DNA of 64,000 nt from Palleronia pelagia (GTDB taxonomy: Bacteria; Pseudomonadota; Alphaproteobacteria; Rhodobacterales; Rhodobacteraceae). This document shows positions 23,580 through 30,184 of this stretch, piece by piece (position 1 is the stretch's first letter; the number at the start of each line of letters is the position of its first letter). The notes under the pieces are model-generated. The model had not been told where the DNA came from, did no database searches, and saw nothing but the letters and a program-made list of their open reading frames with translations. The translations under genes were made by a program, and so were the position numbers. The stretch lies in NCBI RefSeq assembly GCF_900110115.1, contig NZ_FOCM01000008.1:62001-126000 (forward strand). The letters are read 5' to 3'.

Positions 23580-25019
23580 ATGGAAATGCCCACACCCGAC
23601 GCCGCCATCGTGTCGCGCAAGGCCCGCATCGTGCGTCGCCTGTTGCAGGTTCTGCCCGAGGACGCCGTCATCCACGAGCCGCACGAGACGCGCGCCTATG
23701 AATGCGACGCGCTGACCGCCTACAAGTGCCCGCCGCTGGCCGCCGTGCTGCCTGCCTCGACCGACGAGGTCGCCGCGGTGCTGCGCGTCTGCCACGAGGA
23801 GGGGATCCCCGTGGTGCCGCGCGGATCCGGCACGTCGCTGGCGGGCGGGGCGTTGCCCACCGCCGATTGCGTGATCCTTGGCGTGGCGCGGCTGAACGAG
23901 GTGATCGAGACCAATTACGACGACCGTTACATCCGCGTGCAGACCGGGCGCACCAATCTCAGCGTCACCGGCGCGGTGGAAGAGGACGGCTGGTTCTATG
24001 CCCCCGACCCGTCATCGCAGCTGGCCTGCGCGATCGCGGGCAATATCGGCATGAACTCGGGCGGGGCGCATTGCCTGAAATACGGGGTGACCACCAACAA
24101 CCTGCTGGGCGTGACCATGGTGCTGATGGACGGCACCGTGACCGAGATCGGCGGCGCGCACCTGGACGCGGCGGGCTATGACCTGCTGGGCGTGATCTGC
24201 GGCAGCGAGGGGCAGCTGGGCGTGGTGACCGAGGCGACCCTGCGCATCCTGCCCAAGCCCGAGGGCGCGCGCCCCGTTCTGATCGGGTTCGATTCGAACG
24301 AGGTCGCGGGCCAGTGCGTCAGCGACATCATCAAGGCGGGCGTGCTGCCCGTGGCGATCGAGTTCATGGACCGGCCCTGCATTCGCGCGACCGAGGCCTT
24401 CGCCGGCGCGGGTTACCCCGATTGCGAGGCGCTGCTCATCGTCGAGGTCGAGGGCTCGGACGCCGAGATCGACAACCAGCTGGGGCTCATCGGCCAGATC
24501 GCGCGCGGCCATGACCCCGTCGAGCTGCGCGAAAGCAAGTCGGGCGAGGAATCGGCGCGCATCTGGCTGGGCCGCAAGTCGGCCTTCGGGGCGATGGGGC
24601 AGATCAACGATTACATCTGCCTCGACGGCACCATCCCGGTCAGCGAGCTTCCCAAGGTCCTGGGCAAGATCCGCGAACTGTCGCAGGGATACGGCCTGGA
24701 CGTGGCAAACGTGTTCCACGCGGGCGACGGCAACATGCACCCGCTGATTCTGTTCGATGCGAACAAGCCGGGCGACCTGGACAAGGCCGAGGCGCTGGGC
24801 GCCGACATCCTGCGCCTGTGCGTTGAGGTGGGCGGCTGCCTGACCGGCGAACATGGCGTGGGCGTGGAAAAGCGCGACCTGATGGAAGCGCAGTTCGCCC
24901 CCGAGGATCTCGAGGCGCAGTTGCGCGTGAAGGACGTGTTCGACCCCGCCTGGCTGCTGAACCCCGCCAAGGTGTTCCCGCTGTCGGTGACCGCGTCGCG
25001 GCGCGTGGCGGCCGAGTAG
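23580..25019 (+). CDS. glcD: Glycolate oxidase subunit GlcD (FAD-linked)
   Basis: 479 residues, the catalytic FAD subunit that oxidises glycolate to glyoxylate. The FAD-binding PP-loop is VVPRGSGTSLAGGALP, the C-terminal conserved blocks are NVFHAGDGNMHPLILFD and GGCLTGEHGVGVEKRD. ATG start follows AGGAGGACCCGCC. Its normal partners glcE and glcF are present but lie 5.2 kb downstream on the same strand, separated by an unrelated cassette. Confidence 0.95.
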   Translation: MEMPTPDAAIVSRKARIVRRLLQVLPEDAVIHEPHETRAYECDALTAYKCPPLAAVLPASTDEVAAVLRVCHEEGIPVVPRGSGTSLAGGALPTADCVILGVARLNEVIETNYDDRYIRVQTGRTNLSVTGAVEEDGWFYAPDPSSQLACAIAGNIGMNSGGAHCLKYGVTTNNLLGVTMVLMDGTVTEIGGAHLDAAGYDLLGVICGSEGQLGVVTEATLRILPKPEGARPVLIGFDSNEVAGQCVSDIIKAGVLPVAIEFMDRPCIRATEAFAGAGYPDCEALLIVEVEGSDAEIDNQLGLIGQIARGHDPVELRESKSGEESARIWLGRKSAFGAMGQINDYICLDGTIPVSELPKVLGKIRELSQGYGLDVANVFHAGDGNMHPLILFDANKPGDLDKAEALGADILRLCVEVGGCLTGEHGVGVEKRDLMEAQFAPEDLEAQLRVKDVFDPAWLLNPAKVFPLSVTASRRVAAE

Positions 25020-25153
25020 GGCTGGGCTCAGAAGCCACGGCCCGGGGTGGTTGTCGGCGCCAGGCGGTGAAACGCGAAGACGCGGCGCATTGATTTTCCC
25101 GCGGGGCTGACCCCATGCTGGGTTGAGCCTGTCCGTTCGTCCGAGGTATGCCC

Positions 25154-26008
25154 ATGTCGCGCTGGTCCGACGAGATCGAGTGGCTGGATCCCACGCGGGA
25201 CTTCGAGCGAATCGTCTTCCTGCTGGGAACCTGCGAGTTCGCCTGGGATATCGAGAAGGCGCTCGAATTCGCGCTGTTCCGGACCTACGCCGTGCCCTCG
25301 ATTTCCGGCCTGCTGTCCCGCACGGGCGCCTTCCGCCGGGACACCCGGAAACGCTACGACGACACCGAGCTTCTGCTGTCGGAAATCAGCGAAAACGGCC
25401 AGCACAGCGCGCGTGGACGGGCGGCGCTGGACCGGATCAACGAGATGCACGGGCACTACCGCATCTCAAACGCCGATATGCTGTACGTGCTGACGACCTT
25501 CGTGGTCGAGCCGCCCAGATGGCTCGACCGCTTCGGGCGCCGGTCGATGACGCCAAAGGAGCGCGAGGCCTGGGCGGCCTATCATCGCGCACTCGGGCGG
25601 CAGATGGGGATCGAGGACATCCCAGAGGATTTCGAAGCGTTCGACACCTACGGCCGCGCCTACGAAAATGCGCAGTTCCGCTACGCCGACAGCAACGCCG
25701 AGATCGGTAAGGCCACCCGGGATCTTCTGCTTTCCTTCTACCTGCCCAGATGGCTGGTGCCGCTGGGGCGTCCGGCGGTCCACGCGATGTGCGATCCGCC
25801 GCTGCGGGCTGCCATGGGCTTCCCAAGCCCGCCGCCGTGGCTTCAGCGGCTGGTCATCGCGGGACTTGGTGCGCGGGCGACGCTTCTGCGCCGGTTGCCC
25901 GGCCGCAGGCGACCGCGCCTCATCACGGCCCGCAAGCGCCCGACCTATCCGGGCGGGTATCGCATTTCCGAGCTCGGGACATTCCCGAAAGGATCAAGGT
26001 CGGATTGA
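25154..26008 (+). CDS. MpaB/DUF2236-family oxygenase
   Basis: 284 residues resembling the oxygenase MpaB/latex-clearing (Lcp) family (DUF2236), heme-dependent enzymes in characterised cases. Typical blocks are an early ALEFALFRTYAVPSISGLL, R-x-T-x-K-R-Y-DDT, then HGHYRISNADMLYVLTTFVVEP and WAAYHRALGRQMGIEDIP. The C-terminus is very basic (LLRRLPGRRRPRLITARKRP). The ATG at 25154 has GAGG seven bases upstream; one at 25148 is in frame. It is the first gene of the segment that separates glcD from glcE and is convergent with the ATP-grasp gene. Substrate unknown. Confidence 0.75.
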   Translation: MSRWSDEIEWLDPTRDFERIVFLLGTCEFAWDIEKALEFALFRTYAVPSISGLLSRTGAFRRDTRKRYDDTELLLSEISENGQHSARGRAALDRINEMHGHYRISNADMLYVLTTFVVEPPRWLDRFGRRSMTPKEREAWAAYHRALGRQMGIEDIPEDFEAFDTYGRAYENAQFRYADSNAEIGKATRDLLLSFYLPRWLVPLGRPAVHAMCDPPLRAAMGFPSPPPWLQRLVIAGLGARATLLRRLPGRRRPRLITARKRPTYPGGYRISELGTFPKGSRSD

Positions 26009-26083
26009 GGGCGGGAGACAGCGACCCGAATCCGACCGAGTGAGGTCGGGGGACGGGACGCCGATCTCACCTTCCGCCCGTGA

Positions 26084-27016
26084 TCATCCCTGTCCGCCCG
26101 CGCCTTGGCCGCCGGCTGCAAGCTGCGCGGCAACCTCGTCGGAGATGGGCTGGCCCGTCGCCTCCTGATACGCGGAGAAGGCAGGGCTGGGGTTGACCTC
26201 GAAGCAGAAGACCCGCCCGTCGTCGCAGTACCGCAGATCGATTCCGGCCAACACCAACCCAAGCTTCCGGGTCAGGGCGATTGCTGCGGCGGCGACCTCG
26301 TCACTTACAGTGGCAGCACGCCAGTCGGCCTCGCCATCATAGCGATAGTCCGCCTTGTCCGAGCGCACCTCGGTCGCGAAGATCGACTCTCCCACCACGT
26401 GAACCCGCATGTCGCGACCCTCGACACGTTCCTGGAATTGCACGGGGCAGGCGGTCAGCATCTCGCGCCGCGCTTCGAGCTGACCGGGTTCAAGCTCGGT
26501 CACGATCGATCGCTCGCCGCTGCAGGACTTGTAGATCACGCGCCCCATGCGAGCGCAGAACTCGGCCGCGATGTCGTAGTCGTTGGTGATACAGGTGCGC
26601 GGCACGAAAAAATGCTCGGCGATCAGCAGCGACTGCAACGGCTTGCTGGAGTTGGATGCGTTGGGCGCGCTGCGGTTCATGACCAGACAGGGGGCGAGGT
26701 CGCAGAACTCGCTGGCCCGTCCCGAGGCGGCAAGCGCATGGTCGGCCAGGCGGTCGTCGGCGTCGAGCGCGCGGAATTCCGGCGTCAGCTCGACATTGGA
26801 CTGGCGGTTGAAGATCCCGCTGATCTCGTCGATCCCGATTATCCGGTCGCCGATCATGGCCGCCCCATCGACGCCCCCGGGTCCGACGCGAAGGTCGCAA
26901 TCGTTCATCAGGTCGCGCGGAGACCAGAGCGCCACGTCAGCGCCCATGGTGTCCAGCGCGGTCGAGACCGCCTTTACCATCGGATCATGGGCGTATCCGA
27001 ACAGCAGCGCGGTCAT
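26084..27016 (-). CDS. RimK/MvdD-like ATP-grasp peptide ligase (graspetide type)
   Basis: 310 residues. The N-terminal part (GIFNRQSNVE near 67-76) resembles the pre-ATP-grasp domain of MvdC/MvdD. The ATP-grasp core has K163 (RVIYKSCSGERSIV), the FQERVEGRDMRVHVVG block (194-209) typical of graspetide ligases, D260 in LAGIDLR, and the metal pair E273 and N275 in CFEVNPSPAF, then ATGQPISDEVAAQL near the end. These ligases phosphorylate Glu/Asp side-chain carboxylates of a peptide and join them to Lys, Ser or Thr side chains. The ATG overlaps the stop of the preceding gene (ATGA). The likely substrate is the Lys-Glu tail of the tyrosinase two genes upstream; that link is inference. Confidence 0.85.
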   Translation of the reverse strand: MTALLFGYAHDPMVKAVSTALDTMGADVALWSPRDLMNDCDLRVGPGGVDGAAMIGDRIIGIDEISGIFNRQSNVELTPEFRALDADDRLADHALAASGRASEFCDLAPCLVMNRSAPNASNSSKPLQSLLIAEHFFVPRTCITNDYDIAAEFCARMGRVIYKSCSGERSIVTELEPGQLEARREMLTACPVQFQERVEGRDMRVHVVGESIFATEVRSDKADYRYDGEADWRAATVSDEVAAAAIALTRKLGLVLAGIDLRYCDDGRVFCFEVNPSPAFSAYQEATGQPISDEVAAQLAAGGQGAGGQG

Positions 27017-27711
27017 GGCGATGTCAGATCGGCCAGCATGTCCGGCACGACCGGTCCGAATGCGCCGAAATCGACCATCGGGACCGGGCCATCGAAAAGA
27101 GGCCCGTCCGGTCCCTCGACAAAGCGGAACACCGCCGCAATGTCATTCTGGAGCGGGAGGAGACGGCTTGCCGGATCGGCAAGTTCGGACGGGGCTGCCT
27201 CTCCTCCGGCGACGAAACAGCCGCCGGACGTAGCCAAGACGTCCGTTCGAGCGTTGTCCGGCGTCTCGGCCAGGTGATCTGCCGCGACCGGCAGGCCCAA
27301 GCTGGCCGCCATGACCCGCCATTCCCGGGGCGAGGCGTCGTCGCCCCAAGGCGTGTAAGGGGCGGGACGGCCGATCATGGGGCACGCCCATGCGGCAAAC
27401 CAGCCGACGAGGGACGCGCGGCATTCCTCGGCGGCATAGACGAGGTCGGCATCGCTGCCGTTCTCCAAGGGCGGCACCGGGAAGGAGGTGAGGCGCGCGA
27501 CGATGGCGTTCACGTTTCCGGTCGAGAGCGAAACGCCCGACGCGGTCGTCAGCCTTGGCTCGGGAGCATCGCCGCCGAGTTCCAACGCGAAACGCGATCC
27601 GACGAGCAATTCTTCCGGCAGCGATACCTCGACCGGAACGTCGCGCTCGGACAACGCCCCGGCCAGCCAGAGCGCCGGGCCGTCGTCCGGTTCACAGAAG
27701 ATGTGGATCAC
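27013..27711 (-). CDS. Unknown protein resembling a stand-alone pre-ATP-grasp domain
   Basis: 232 residues, soluble, no signal peptide. The segment VNAIVARLTSFPVPPL, DLVYAAEECRASLVGWFAAWACPMIGRP and EWRVMAASLGLPVAADHLAET follows the order seen in N-terminal domains of RimK-like and graspetide ligases (a strand with Arg, a Y-A-x-E-E helix, then N/GRP and a substrate-side helix). The ATP-grasp core itself is missing: no Lys or E-x-N metal motif follows. It starts 15 bases after the tyrosinase stop and its stop overlaps the ligase start, so it is probably a dedicated partner, perhaps for substrate recognition. The assignment is tentative. Confidence 0.55.
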   Translation of the reverse strand: MIHIFCEPDDGPALWLAGALSERDVPVEVSLPEELLVGSRFALELGGDAPEPRLTTASGVSLSTGNVNAIVARLTSFPVPPLENGSDADLVYAAEECRASLVGWFAAWACPMIGRPAPYTPWGDDASPREWRVMAASLGLPVAADHLAETPDNARTDVLATSGGCFVAGGEAAPSELADPASRLLPLQNDIAAVFRFVEGPDGPLFDGPVPMVDFGAFGPVVPDMLADLTSP

Positions 27712-27726
27712 CTCGGTCTCCGCCGC

Positions 27727-29004
27727 TTACCGCCGCCGCAGAAGGTCGGCACGGCGCGCCAGCAGATCGTTGCGAAGCCGCGACACGTCTCCGGTGGATA
27801 CCCCCGGTTCGAAGGCAAGATCCGCGCCGGTCAGGTCGGGCCGCAAGCCGGGATCGATGAACACGCCGCCTTCGGTGAAGCTCTTCGTGTCGTTCTCGAA
27901 GATCTCCTTGGGCCCACCTTCCTTGAACTCTTTCGGGCCGCCCTCCTTGATTTCCTTGGGGCCGCCTTCCTTGAATTCCTTCGGTCCCCCCTCCTTCAGT
28001 TCCTTTGGCAGCCGTTCCTTGAACTCCTTGGGGCCGCGCTCCTTCAGTTCTTTCGGGCCAAGCTCCTTTGGAAGGCGTTCCTTCGGTGACAGCTCCTTTG
28101 GAAGGCGTTCTTTCAACTCCTTCGGGATCCGTTCCTTTGGCAGGAATTCCTTGGGAATACGCTCTTTCAGCGGCTTGATGTCGATGCAGCCGTCCACGGT
28201 GTCGTAGCGATAGCCGAGAGCGAGGTGGTCGATCATGTCGGCCGGGGTGACGATCTCGGGCGAATTGACCCAAGGTTGAACCCCAAAAGGCACCTGCGTG
28301 CCGTTCCAGGGCCACATGGAATCGTTCAGGCTGTGCCCGGTCGGCCCGCCGCTTACCGGCTTGTAGGGCTCGAAGCCCGGCGCCCCTTCGTGGTCCTTGA
28401 TCCATTGGGCCCAAAGCCGGTCGACGTTGCAGTGGATCAGCCAGAAGTCCGGGGTGCGGCAGGTCTCGGTGAATGCCTGCACGTCGCCGCCGCAGAACAC
28501 GTGCGCCGAGCCGTGCGGCCCCTCGATCCCGCGAAACACGTTGAAATCCGGGCTTGCCATGTCGGCTGCGATGTCCCCGCCCGTGCCGGGGAACGTGAAG
28601 ATATCGAAGGGCTTGCGGGTGAACCGACCGGCGAAGGGGCCCGTGGTAACGGGAAAGCCGCCGAAACTGCCGGCCGAGCCGGATGAGTTGTCACCCGGGC
28701 CGCCGAGGAAGTCGTCGCGCCAGATCAGAGACTGGGTCCCGCTGGAATTCAGATTGGCCTGCGTCCAGTCCCAGTAGGGCAGGGAAACGTTCGGGTCGAT
28801 ATTCTGGAGATCCAGTTCGAAGCGGCGCACGAATTCCCGGTGCCACGCCACGAAAGCCGGTCCGCCATGTCCGTGCGCGCCGGCGCCGGCGTGGATGTCG
28901 GCGTAGCCTTGGGCAGTTCCGTCGTCCATGAGCGTCAGAAAAGCGTTTACGAAAGCGCTGCGCTCAGACGCCGTGAGAGTGGTCAGATTCTTACGACAAC
29001 CCAT
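27727..29004 (-). CDS. Tyrosinase with a Lys-Glu repeat tail
   Basis: 425 residues. The catalytic domain (about 1-275) is a type 3 copper tyrosinase: CuA ligands H38, H46 and H55 (AWHREF), CuB ligands H164, H168 and H191 (FWLIHCNVDRLW). It oxidises phenols to quinones in characterised relatives. Residues 277-370 are a low-complexity tail with 21 Lys-Glu dipeptides, first as PKExx five-residue units, then as four perfect-length eight-residue units GGPKE(F/I)KE. A short non-repeat C-terminus (371-425, DPGLRPDLTGADLAFEPG and a basic helix) ends the protein. No signal peptide. Second gene of the four-gene operon; the tail is the proposed substrate of the ATP-grasp ligase. Confidence 0.88.
   Translation of the reverse strand: MGCRKNLTTLTASERSAFVNAFLTLMDDGTAQGYADIHAGAGAHGHGGPAFVAWHREFVRRFELDLQNIDPNVSLPYWDWTQANLNSSGTQSLIWRDDFLGGPGDNSSGSAGSFGGFPVTTGPFAGRFTRKPFDIFTFPGTGGDIAADMASPDFNVFRGIEGPHGSAHVFCGGDVQAFTETCRTPDFWLIHCNVDRLWAQWIKDHEGAPGFEPYKPVSGGPTGHSLNDSMWPWNGTQVPFGVQPWVNSPEIVTPADMIDHLALGYRYDTVDGCIDIKPLKERIPKEFLPKERIPKELKERLPKELSPKERLPKELGPKELKERGPKEFKERLPKELKEGGPKEFKEGGPKEIKEGGPKEFKEGGPKEIFENDTKSFTEGGVFIDPGLRPDLTGADLAFEPGVSTGDVSRLRNDLLARRADLLRRR
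27895..28176 (-). repeat. Tandem repeat coding for the Lys-Glu tail
   Basis: Within the tyrosinase gene, tandem 24-base units (and earlier 15-base units) each centred on CCT-TTC/CTT-type anticodon-strand runs encode PKE repeats. At least four consecutive 24-base copies lie at about 27895-27990 and keep frame. Silent differences between copies are visible, so the array is not a very recent exact duplication. Confidence 0.85.
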
Positions 29005-29062
29005 GTCGCGTCCTCCTGTCTATAGAATTGAGTGCTTGAAATGCGAGGTCGTCCGCCCGGAC

Positions 29063-29296
29063 TCAGGCGAACTGGTGCCAGTATCGAATGATATGCTTGG
29101 CCATCTTTTCGGGGGTTTCGGTCATCGTGTAGGCGTCGTGACACATCCACAGCTTGATGAAGTTGTCTTCCGGCTTGCCGACGGAATGGACATGAATATC
29201 GAACTTCTTCCCGTCGATGGTGATGGTCGCCTTGTCACCGGACTTGTCGATGTCGATCTTCGCCGTTTTCCCCATGTAATCGAGTTGTTTGGCCAT
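29063..29296 (-). CDS. 77-residue protein leading the tyrosinase operon
   Basis: 77 residues, charged and soluble. It has an N-terminal beta-hairpin-like part (TAKIDIDKSGDKATITIDGKK) and a His-rich second half: H35, H37, H53, H68 and H74 with C52 in LWMCHDAYTMT and RYWHQFA. A GGGAGG ribosome site lies seven bases before ATG. It is the first gene behind the operon promoter and 58 bases upstream of the tyrosinase gene. I do not recognise a family. A copper-delivery (caddie-like) role for the tyrosinase, or a peptide substrate, would fit the position; neither is shown. Confidence 0.7.
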   Translation of the reverse strand: MAKQLDYMGKTAKIDIDKSGDKATITIDGKKFDIHVHSVGKPEDNFIKLWMCHDAYTMTETPEKMAKHIIRYWHQFA

Positions 29297-29355
29297 AATG
29301 GCGCCTCCCGTGGAAAATTCTGCGGAACAAATCTTTCGAAATAAAAACAAGCATA

Positions 29356-29384
29356 AGTATAGCGAAGAGATCGCGATTCGTCTA
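29356..29384 (-). promoter_or_regulatory. Sigma70-like promoter of the tyrosinase operon
   Basis: On the minus strand TAGACG (29384-29379) and TATACT (29361-29356) are 17 bases apart, close to the TTGACA/TATAAT consensus. The leader to the 77-residue gene would be about 55 bases. The region is the most AT-rich in this part of the window, and an ATCGCGAT palindrome (29368-29375) lies in the spacer. Confidence 0.55.
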
Positions 29385-29430
29385 CGATTGTCCCAATATG
29401 ACACGGGGCGAGATGAATGAGAGGCGTGCG

Positions 29431-29940
29431 ATGTTCCACCGCCGGCATGTGCTGGAGCGGTGTGCCGCCGCGCTGTCCATCGCGCTGGTCGTGACTCCCG
29501 CCATGGCCCAGGAGGATCGCCCGATGCTCTCCGGAAACCTCGAGGCGATCCTGCCCCAGGCGGATGATTTACCCGGCCCGATGACGTCGCTGATTGGAAA
29601 TTGGGCGCTGTCCGTCGAGGATGACAGGCCTGTGATCGAGCTCACGCTCGAATGGTCCGGTGACGTGGATGAAAACACGTTGGCCACCCTGGGAATGGTC
29701 GCCGTGGTCCAGACCCCGTCGATCTATGTCGCGTTTCTGGACATCCCGATGATTGAGGGCCTCGCCGCCAATACCCATGGGACCGTCAGCGCGACTTACG
29801 AGTGGGGCGAATTGCTGAGCACGGATCTGTCCACCGGGCCAGCGACTTACCTGAGTGCCGATGACGCGCGGGAAGCCCTGAACGGCGGCGCGCGTGTATC
29901 GCAAATGATCATCACGTCCGCTGATTTCGCAGAGCGGTAA
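29431..29940 (+). CDS. Exported protein of unknown function
   Basis: 169 residues with a signal peptide beginning MFHRRHVLERCAAALSIALVV and a likely cut after AMA. The mature domain alternates strands (WALSVEDDRPVIELTLEWSG, SIYVAFLDIP, HGTVSATYEWGEL), suggesting a beta-rich periplasmic protein. The ATG at 29431 has GAGAGG seven bases upstream; in-frame ATGs at 29398 and 29413 are alternatives. It is divergent from the tyrosinase operon and shares its control region, but a functional link is not shown. Confidence 0.6.
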   Translation: MFHRRHVLERCAAALSIALVVTPAMAQEDRPMLSGNLEAILPQADDLPGPMTSLIGNWALSVEDDRPVIELTLEWSGDVDENTLATLGMVAVVQTPSIYVAFLDIPMIEGLAANTHGTVSATYEWGELLSTDLSTGPATYLSADDAREALNGGARVSQMIITSADFAER

Positions 29941-30184
29941 CACCCCTTGGGAATGATCTTCTGATCACTGCACTTTTCGCGGTCGAGCCGTCCGCCTGTT
30001 GCCGCGACTTCCCCAAGCAGGACGAGTCAGCTCTTCGACAGGCCACGGGTCTTTCATCGTCGACATATGAAGGTCTGCCATCCCCTGATCGGCGCAGCGG
30101 CTACACGCGCAGCGCACCGCGGGGGGCGTGGCATCCCACGCGCCTCTGTGGCATTGGGGGAGAGTGACGAGGGAGGAGCCGTTG

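Follow-up and report, generated by a model that had tools for sequence, protein, structure and literature searches.

The window analysed here, a stretch of 64,000 nucleotides from Palleronia pelagia (contig NZ_FOCM01000008.1, positions 62,001 to 126,000 of the forward strand), carries a four-gene operon encoding a 77-residue protein, a type-3 copper tyrosinase, a 232-residue protein and an ATP-grasp ligase of the graspetide type, and we propose, with a probability of about two in three, that the tyrosinase's own C-terminal tail is a portable module and the substrate of this ligase. A tail fused to the tyrosinase had been put forward as the ligase substrate in a first-pass annotation of this DNA, and comparison across genomes supports that part of the idea well: the tail and its motif accompany the ligase over at least seven classes of cargo protein, and at four loci the cargo is little more than a Lys/Glu-rich peptide.

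The tail module and its cargo

The tyrosinase (425 residues; 27727..29004, minus strand) matches Pfam PF00264 at 4.1e-27 (96.4 bits against a gathering score of 22.6) and the NCBIfam model MelC2 at 2.9e-37, under that model's cut-off, and the spacing of His 38, 46, 55, 164, 168 and 191 fits six copper ligands, an assignment made by spacing. Residues 280 to 367 (27904..28167, minus strand), the proposed modified or core region, hold 21 Lys and 21 Glu, and each Lys is followed by Glu. The count of 21 Lys-Glu dipeptides given in the first-pass annotation was therefore correct, and shuffling the stretch yielded a mean of 5.0 and a maximum of 12, with 21 reached in 0 of 5000 shuffles. Beyond the repeats lies the sequence FIDPGLRPDL (residues 382 to 391; 27832..27861, minus strand), the proposed recognition or follower sequence, and then 34 more residues to the C-terminus. 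This motif, which had been overlooked, is the most conserved part of the tail across loci and was identified by both a strict pattern, F-[IV]-x4-R-P-x-[LV], and a tail profile; the Lys-Glu region has K-[E/D] equivalents at the other loci.

Scanning an alignment of the ligase over genome contigs gave 123 pattern-matching stretches and 54 loci encoding a relative, one of which (L059) was dropped as it held no ligase by profile, so that the final set comprised 53 loci plus the window, or 54 ligases. At 49 of these 54 loci, the window included, a gene beside the ligase and its partner carries the motif, usually accompanied by a K-[E/D]-rich stretch. The tagged gene lies just upstream of the pair at 47 loci and downstream at two (L042 and L057, both admitted by hand; the L057 ligase is split over two frames). 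R-P is invariant and F-I nearly so in the alignment of the tails, with P replacing F at L056. The strict motif occurred 48 times in 954,532 residues (4118 translated segments of the loci), 48 of 48 times in tag genes; because those genes were picked with that motif, its absence elsewhere is the informative part. Over the 49 tails, Lys is followed by Glu or Asp 622 times, against 192 by shuffling and 294 for the reverse order of acid then Lys, and once seven near-copies were removed, 36 of 42 tails had a Lys/Glu/Asp core of at least 20 residues.

At four loci the tagged protein is mostly Lys/Glu peptide with the motif (L006, 188 residues; L053, 175; L007, 465; L042, about 175). The small protein of L042 (L042:8866-9393), encoded downstream of the ligase and beside a longer partner, has the motif N-terminal and the Lys/Glu-rich region after it, the only leader-first arrangement seen, as in ordinary precursors, and this reversal indicates that motif and core are separable modules.

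The association was followed beyond the loci with a profile of about 50 C-terminal residues built from 38 rows. The 50 genomes searched with it comprised the window's own and, with four near-copies omitted, those of 49 of the 53 loci. At E<=1e-3 it gave 46 matches in 45 genomes, every one adjoining a ligase: 44 had the frame lengths of tag genes, one stood immediately ahead of the partner where the L034 contig ends, and one lay in a second locus of an Amycolatopsis genome. As most of the matched tails are themselves in the profile, the informative part is that nothing else matched. The second Amycolatopsis locus (L119) has a tagged gene with its own adjacent ligase and by eye resembles the Kutzneria locus L058. 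Among 390 genomes of the order, with up to 18 first-look candidates scored per listed genome, the tail profile matched three, the same three in which the 232-residue protein was found, and gave no match at E<=1e-3 in the other 387. The search of the order with the 232-residue protein returned two true relatives besides the window, and at both a subtilase gene with a Lys/Glu-rich tail, not a tyrosinase, stands ahead of the ligase and partner. A fourth match (G062/L005, E 4.5e-4) was set aside as chance, its frame lying inside an arginase-like gene (named by eye).

The tagged loci belong to nine phyla (Pseudomonadota, Actinomycetota, Acidobacteriota, Verrucomicrobiota, Myxococcota, Chloroflexota, Cyanobacteriota, Armatimonadota and Bacteroidota), and their 49 tagged proteins, classed by Pfam and pairwise comparison, are unrelated in kind. 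S8 subtilases make up 11, NAL1/trypsin-like proteins nine (several by weak matches, L010 and L014 by similarity), DUF6519 fibres seven (L041 by similarity), M6 peptidases four and kelch proteins three (L056 below the cut-off); tyrosinase, astacin and TIG contribute one each, four are the Lys/Glu peptides, and eight had no telling match. Mapped on a tree of 53 ligases, DUF6519 requires four changes (all forced by starred branches), S8 three (two forced) and kelch three (two forced); as each needs several, the same kind of cargo appears to have been paired repeatedly with different ligase lineages, gains and losses being indistinguishable. The total of 17 changes is not relied on, as it includes a mixed group of 15 unnamed rows, with L010 and L014 counted as unnamed. 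Only four of 49 tagged frames reach a hydrophobicity of 2.0 over 12 residues within the first 150, and by this crude measure, with start codons uncertain, most tagged proteins would seem to have no obvious signal peptide.

Some cargo proteins have companions of their own. At L038, L045, L046, L037 and L023, tail fibres with DUF6519 of the extracellular contractile injection system (eCIS) type bear the C-terminal motif beside the ligase pair, and their contigs also carry a sheath-family gene some 19-25 kb from the tag; this was so in five of six DUF6519 genomes tested (none in L055). We rejected the view that all tagged proteins belong to an eCIS, since only these five DUF6519 loci have a sheath gene within 30 kb of the tag. 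Of the 50 genomes, 31 gave sheath-family matches. Outside the five loci, two matches share a contig with the tag, at 59 kb (Yoonia) and at 230 kb, and the remainder are on separate contigs, of which some are short; in the genome of the window there was none. Separately, similar proteins of about 92-131 residues are encoded directly before the tagged subtilase at L027 (5032-5310), L015, L018, L019, L026, L028 and L031; they are perhaps separate propeptides or inhibitors, and the one scanned had no Pfam match. The tagged astacin of a Verrucomicrobia metagenome-assembled genome (L013:2039-3397) passes the cut-off of the NCBIfam model LegP, whose name comes from an effector family.

The ligase and its partner

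The window ligase (310 residues; 26084..27016, minus strand) matches a RimK-like family in Pfam at 1e-9. When the profile of the whole ligase family was compared with the PDB, it found PsnB at 1.8e-45, MdnC at 3.6e-33, CdnC at 7.7e-33 and PruB at 9.1e-33, with MdnB and AMdnB also ahead of the first RimK (2.2e-12), so that by profile the family is nearer to characterised macrocyclases than to RimK/LysX. D223, Y224 and R225 are present in 54 of 54 ligases and align with D-F-R of PsnB, a motif critical for graspetide synthetases (PMC13097080). The F-E-V-N motif is likewise conserved in all 54, as are E273 and N275, and K125 and K163 occur in 53. The profile comparison and the retained D-Y-R and F-E-V-N motifs bear out the graspetide-type assignment made in the first-pass annotation. 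The best-matching NCBIfam model for the window ligase is TIGR04187, which all 49 family members scanned match at E<=0.001.

A search of 398 genomes of the phylum with the ligase profile (E 1e-60, up to five candidates scored per listed genome) matched only the window, which suggests that the ligase is rare in the phylum and supports no more than that. Neither the ligase (E 1e-20), the 77-residue protein (0.01) nor the tyrosinase (1e-25) had a match in plasmid records, and a search of phage records with the ligase (E 1e-10) was likewise negative.

The 232-residue protein (27013..27711, minus strand, GTG start) matches nothing in Pfam at E up to 1. It had been described as a stand-alone pre-ATP-grasp-like protein, a description that we revise. 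A profile of its family, built from 23 short frames, aligns in hhalign with the ligase family over 234 columns (probability 98.8, E 4.4e-17) with a gap at the central lobe, and no equivalent of F-E-V-N is found among the family positions conserved in at least 80%. Its AlphaFold2 model is confident (predicted local distance difference test, pLDDT, 91.2), and the first 32 Foldseek matches are the macrocyclases PruB, MdnB, MdnC, AMdnB, PsnB and CdnC, PruB being one that we take to be of the graspetide kind. Because homology to the ligase extends over the full length apart from the central lobe, the model is confident and the fold matches are macrocyclases, the protein is best read as an ATP-grasp relative without the central lobe and catalytic residues, and hence as a predicted inactive pseudo-ligase. 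The partner profile matches in 53 of 54 loci (partially in L040, L052 and L055), and at L055 ligase and partner share one frame.

Proposed modification of the tail and competing explanations

In the mechanism we propose, the K-[E/D] repeat would be the core in which bonds form, and the motif would be the recognition sequence, usually C-terminal of the core and hence a follower, not a leader. The ligase, with its catalytically dead partner, would bind the motif, use ATP to activate side chains of Glu/Asp and couple these to Lys side chains in that tail; every isopeptide bond formed would remove 18 Da. An otherwise ordinary enzyme would in this way acquire a stalk that is stapled covalently and resists proteases. 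The comparisons establish the module, its occurrence on unrelated cargo, its tight linkage to the ligase pair and the relationship of ligase and partner. Crosslinking of the tail is suggested by the kinship of the ligase with graspetide synthetases, and we infer the recognition of the substrate, the type of bond, its formation within one molecule and its use to protect or stiffen the tail or to anchor the enzyme. Lys-Glu amides within one tail are the simplest guess, because a graspetide synthetase still works with its leader relocated to the C-terminus (PMC13003496), a graspetide synthetase is able to cyclise proteins (PMC12291112), and corallotide, whose enzyme was assigned to TIGR04187, has repeated Lys-Asp isopeptides in a repeat precursor (PMC13097080). 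Protection from proteolysis would make sense for the Lys-rich tails of peptidases, and in the tyrosinase the bonds might hide Lys from the enzyme's own quinones; both uses are speculation. More tentatively, and short of what we would expect to hold, the loci may represent a general bacterial protein-modification system in which a ligase and pseudo-ligase pair acts on a tag that is portable, mostly C-terminal and shared by unrelated enzymes and contractile-injection fibres, building a ladder of Lys-Glu/Asp isopeptide bonds, within the tail or between tagged molecules and other proteins, that would armour, stiffen, polymerise or anchor the cargo.

Several observations weigh against the tail being the substrate. 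The first-pass annotation needs correcting in that the system is not tyrosinase-specific, and the window's own is the only tagged tyrosinase seen. A survey confined to the class found tyrosinases at E<=1e-10 in eight other genomes of 385, and the strict motif and ligase were absent near them (8-13 kb covered for five, short flanks for three); no Lys-Glu-tailed tyrosinase occurring without the ligase, which would have spoken against the annotation, was seen in this small sample. Of the five untagged loci, L034 and L050 end at a contig end, and L012, L032 and L040 have a ligase and no tag found, the partner being only about 85 residues at L032 and L040. Six of the 42 tails (L030 and five DUF6519 fibres) are without a Lys/Glu/Asp core of at least 20 residues, which makes the core less constant than the motif. 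Against TIGR04187, with its curated cut-off of 350 bits, the window ligase reaches 111.7, and it is not a member of that subfamily; it is also a long branch of unsure placement in the ligase tree. Finally, the bond chemistry itself is a prediction.

These points leave room for other readings. It is unlikely, though it deserves weight, that the ligase instead joins the tail to other partners (tagged enzymes, other proteins or the cell surface) or adds amino acids in the manner of RimK. The ligase shares the ATP-grasp superfamily with RimK, Lys/Glu-rich tails would offer many attachment points, the scarcity of obvious signal peptides by our crude measure fits, and a graspetide synthetase is able to crosslink assembled protein chains (PMC12291112); yet the family profile lies far nearer to the macrocyclases than to RimK (1.8e-45 against 2.2e-12), and the loci with Lys/Glu peptides resemble ordinary precursors. 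We regard as distinctly improbable the view that the tail serves as a spacer, charged and helical or disordered, or as a solubility tag, and that the ligase makes an unrelated small product. Lys/Glu-rich stretches are common in proteins as spacers, and some of the tails have little Lys or Glu, but a mere spacer accounts poorly for a linkage of neighbours that extends across nine phyla, for the preference for Lys-then-acid over acid-then-Lys (622 against 294), for the invariant R-P and near-invariant F-I, or for the lack of any tail-profile match in 387 other genomes of the order. Least credible, and in our judgement very improbable, is that the tail is only a linker and that the ligase receives its peptides from other cellular proteins cleaved by the peptidases, a source proposed by Makarova et al. 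2022: S8, NAL1/trypsin-like, M6 and astacin proteins do make up 25 of the 49 tagged proteins, but many kinds of cargo are not known to be peptidases (the tyrosinase, DUF6519 fibres, kelch and TIG proteins and Lys/Glu peptides), and it is the cargo itself that bears the motif and the Lys/Glu region, both of which go with the ligase.

Several known systems resemble these loci. With graspetides such as microviridin, plesiocin and corallotide the loci share the ligase family, the D-[FY]-R and F-E-V-N-type motifs and a recognition motif separate from the region rich in acceptors and donors; they differ in that full-size enzymes or fibres carry the proposed substrate as a fused tail, in that the recognition motif is usually C-terminal, and in the dead ATP-grasp relative present at 53 of 54 loci. 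Rosaritide offers a parallel for a synthetase with a partner protein, as MirB depends on and copurifies with MirC (PMC13097080), although MirC is SurA/PPIase-like (resembling a peptidyl-prolyl isomerase) whereas the partner here is an ATP-grasp relative. Carter et al. 2026 mention graspetide groups with neighbouring proteases (PMC13097080). Similar too are branches 7 and 8 of the ATP-grasp survey of Makarova et al. 2022 (PMC8939145), for which no precursor could be predicted; both feature peptidases of several unrelated families, proposed to cut other proteins, and branch 8 a truncated, inactive ATP-grasp with N-terminal domains only. The loci described here share the unrelated peptidases and, with branch 8, the truncated ATP-grasp, and are probably these same branches, matched by description, not by accession; the difference is that the precursor we propose is the C-terminal portion of the cargo, whether peptidase or not. 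The first-pass annotation knew of no described system with this arrangement, and that claim needs narrowing: the loci were seemingly seen in 2022, while the precursor was not found there. DUF6519 (eBAP5) is described as an eCIS tail-fibre anchor domain (PMC12923769), and here the fibre in addition carries the motif next to a ligase pair; the main text of that paper mentions neither ATP-grasp nor tyrosinase.

In the literature searched, with subscription papers outside its reach and an earlier mention therefore possible, no statement was found that the precursor is the tail of a neighbouring enzyme, no paper joined graspetides with tyrosinase or ATP-grasp with contractile injection system tail fibres, and no enzyme-fused precursor was apparent in the titles and abstract openings of the graspetide papers listed. 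A tail that serves as precursor would answer a recorded puzzle, that of ATP-grasp loci with peptidases and a dead ligase copy and no precursor. If it holds true, the range of graspetide ligases extends beyond small peptides to full-size enzymes and the fibres of injection systems. In the more tentative general system described above, machinery of ribosomally synthesized and post-translationally modified peptides would serve protein architecture, not a natural product. A C-terminal tag with its ligase pair, found naturally on at least seven protein classes, would also be a natural tool for stapling protein tails.

The window operon and its setting

All four genes lie on the minus strand, in the order 77-residue gene, tyrosinase, 232-residue gene and ATP-grasp gene, with gaps of 58 bases between the first two and 15 bases between the tyrosinase and 232-residue genes and an ATGA overlap joining the last two; the co-directional layout, gaps and overlap are as given in the first-pass annotation, which had left the strand unstated. 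Shine-Dalgarno-like sequences precede the 77-residue gene and the tyrosinase gene. A promoter had also been claimed, and a site is present about 60 bases upstream of the first gene (TAGACG, 17 nucleotides, TATACT; 29356..29384, minus strand); since it matches the consensus at 9 of 12 positions and the 5-kb region holds two such sites where 0.7 are expected by chance, we grade it as weak.

For the 77-residue protein (29063..29296, minus strand), neither Pfam nor NCBIfam gave a match at E up to 1, and the PDB offered no telling one by sequence. Its single-sequence model is of low confidence (pLDDT 57), and in a Foldseek search over 350,542 chains the first match was the Streptomyces tyrosinase caddie 1wx5_D (probability 0.96, template modelling score 0.58, E 0.24). 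The position directly before the tyrosinase gene fits a caddie, and the protein may be a MelC1-like copper chaperone of this kind, which we consider a good guess. As in Streptomyces MelC1/MelC2, a small gene stands directly ahead of the tyrosinase, with this weak fold match to the caddie and no sequence match found between the caddie and the 77-residue protein; we know of no Lys/Glu tail on the Streptomyces MelC1/MelC2 tyrosinase.

The operon and two plus-strand genes sit between genes that we take to be glcD (ending at 25019) and glcE (starting at 30128), the latter presumably followed by glcF. Besides the operon, the interval 25020-30127 holds an MPAB/Lcp-type oxygenase-like gene (25148-26008) and an unnamed gene of 180 codons (29398-29940). 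The end of glcD lies directly before glcE in eight of 11 relatives of the family with the glcF region, the flanks of the other three being too short to tell, and G+C falls to 0.57-0.63 across 27.5-30 kb of the window; together, these two observations suggest that the operon region is a gained island.

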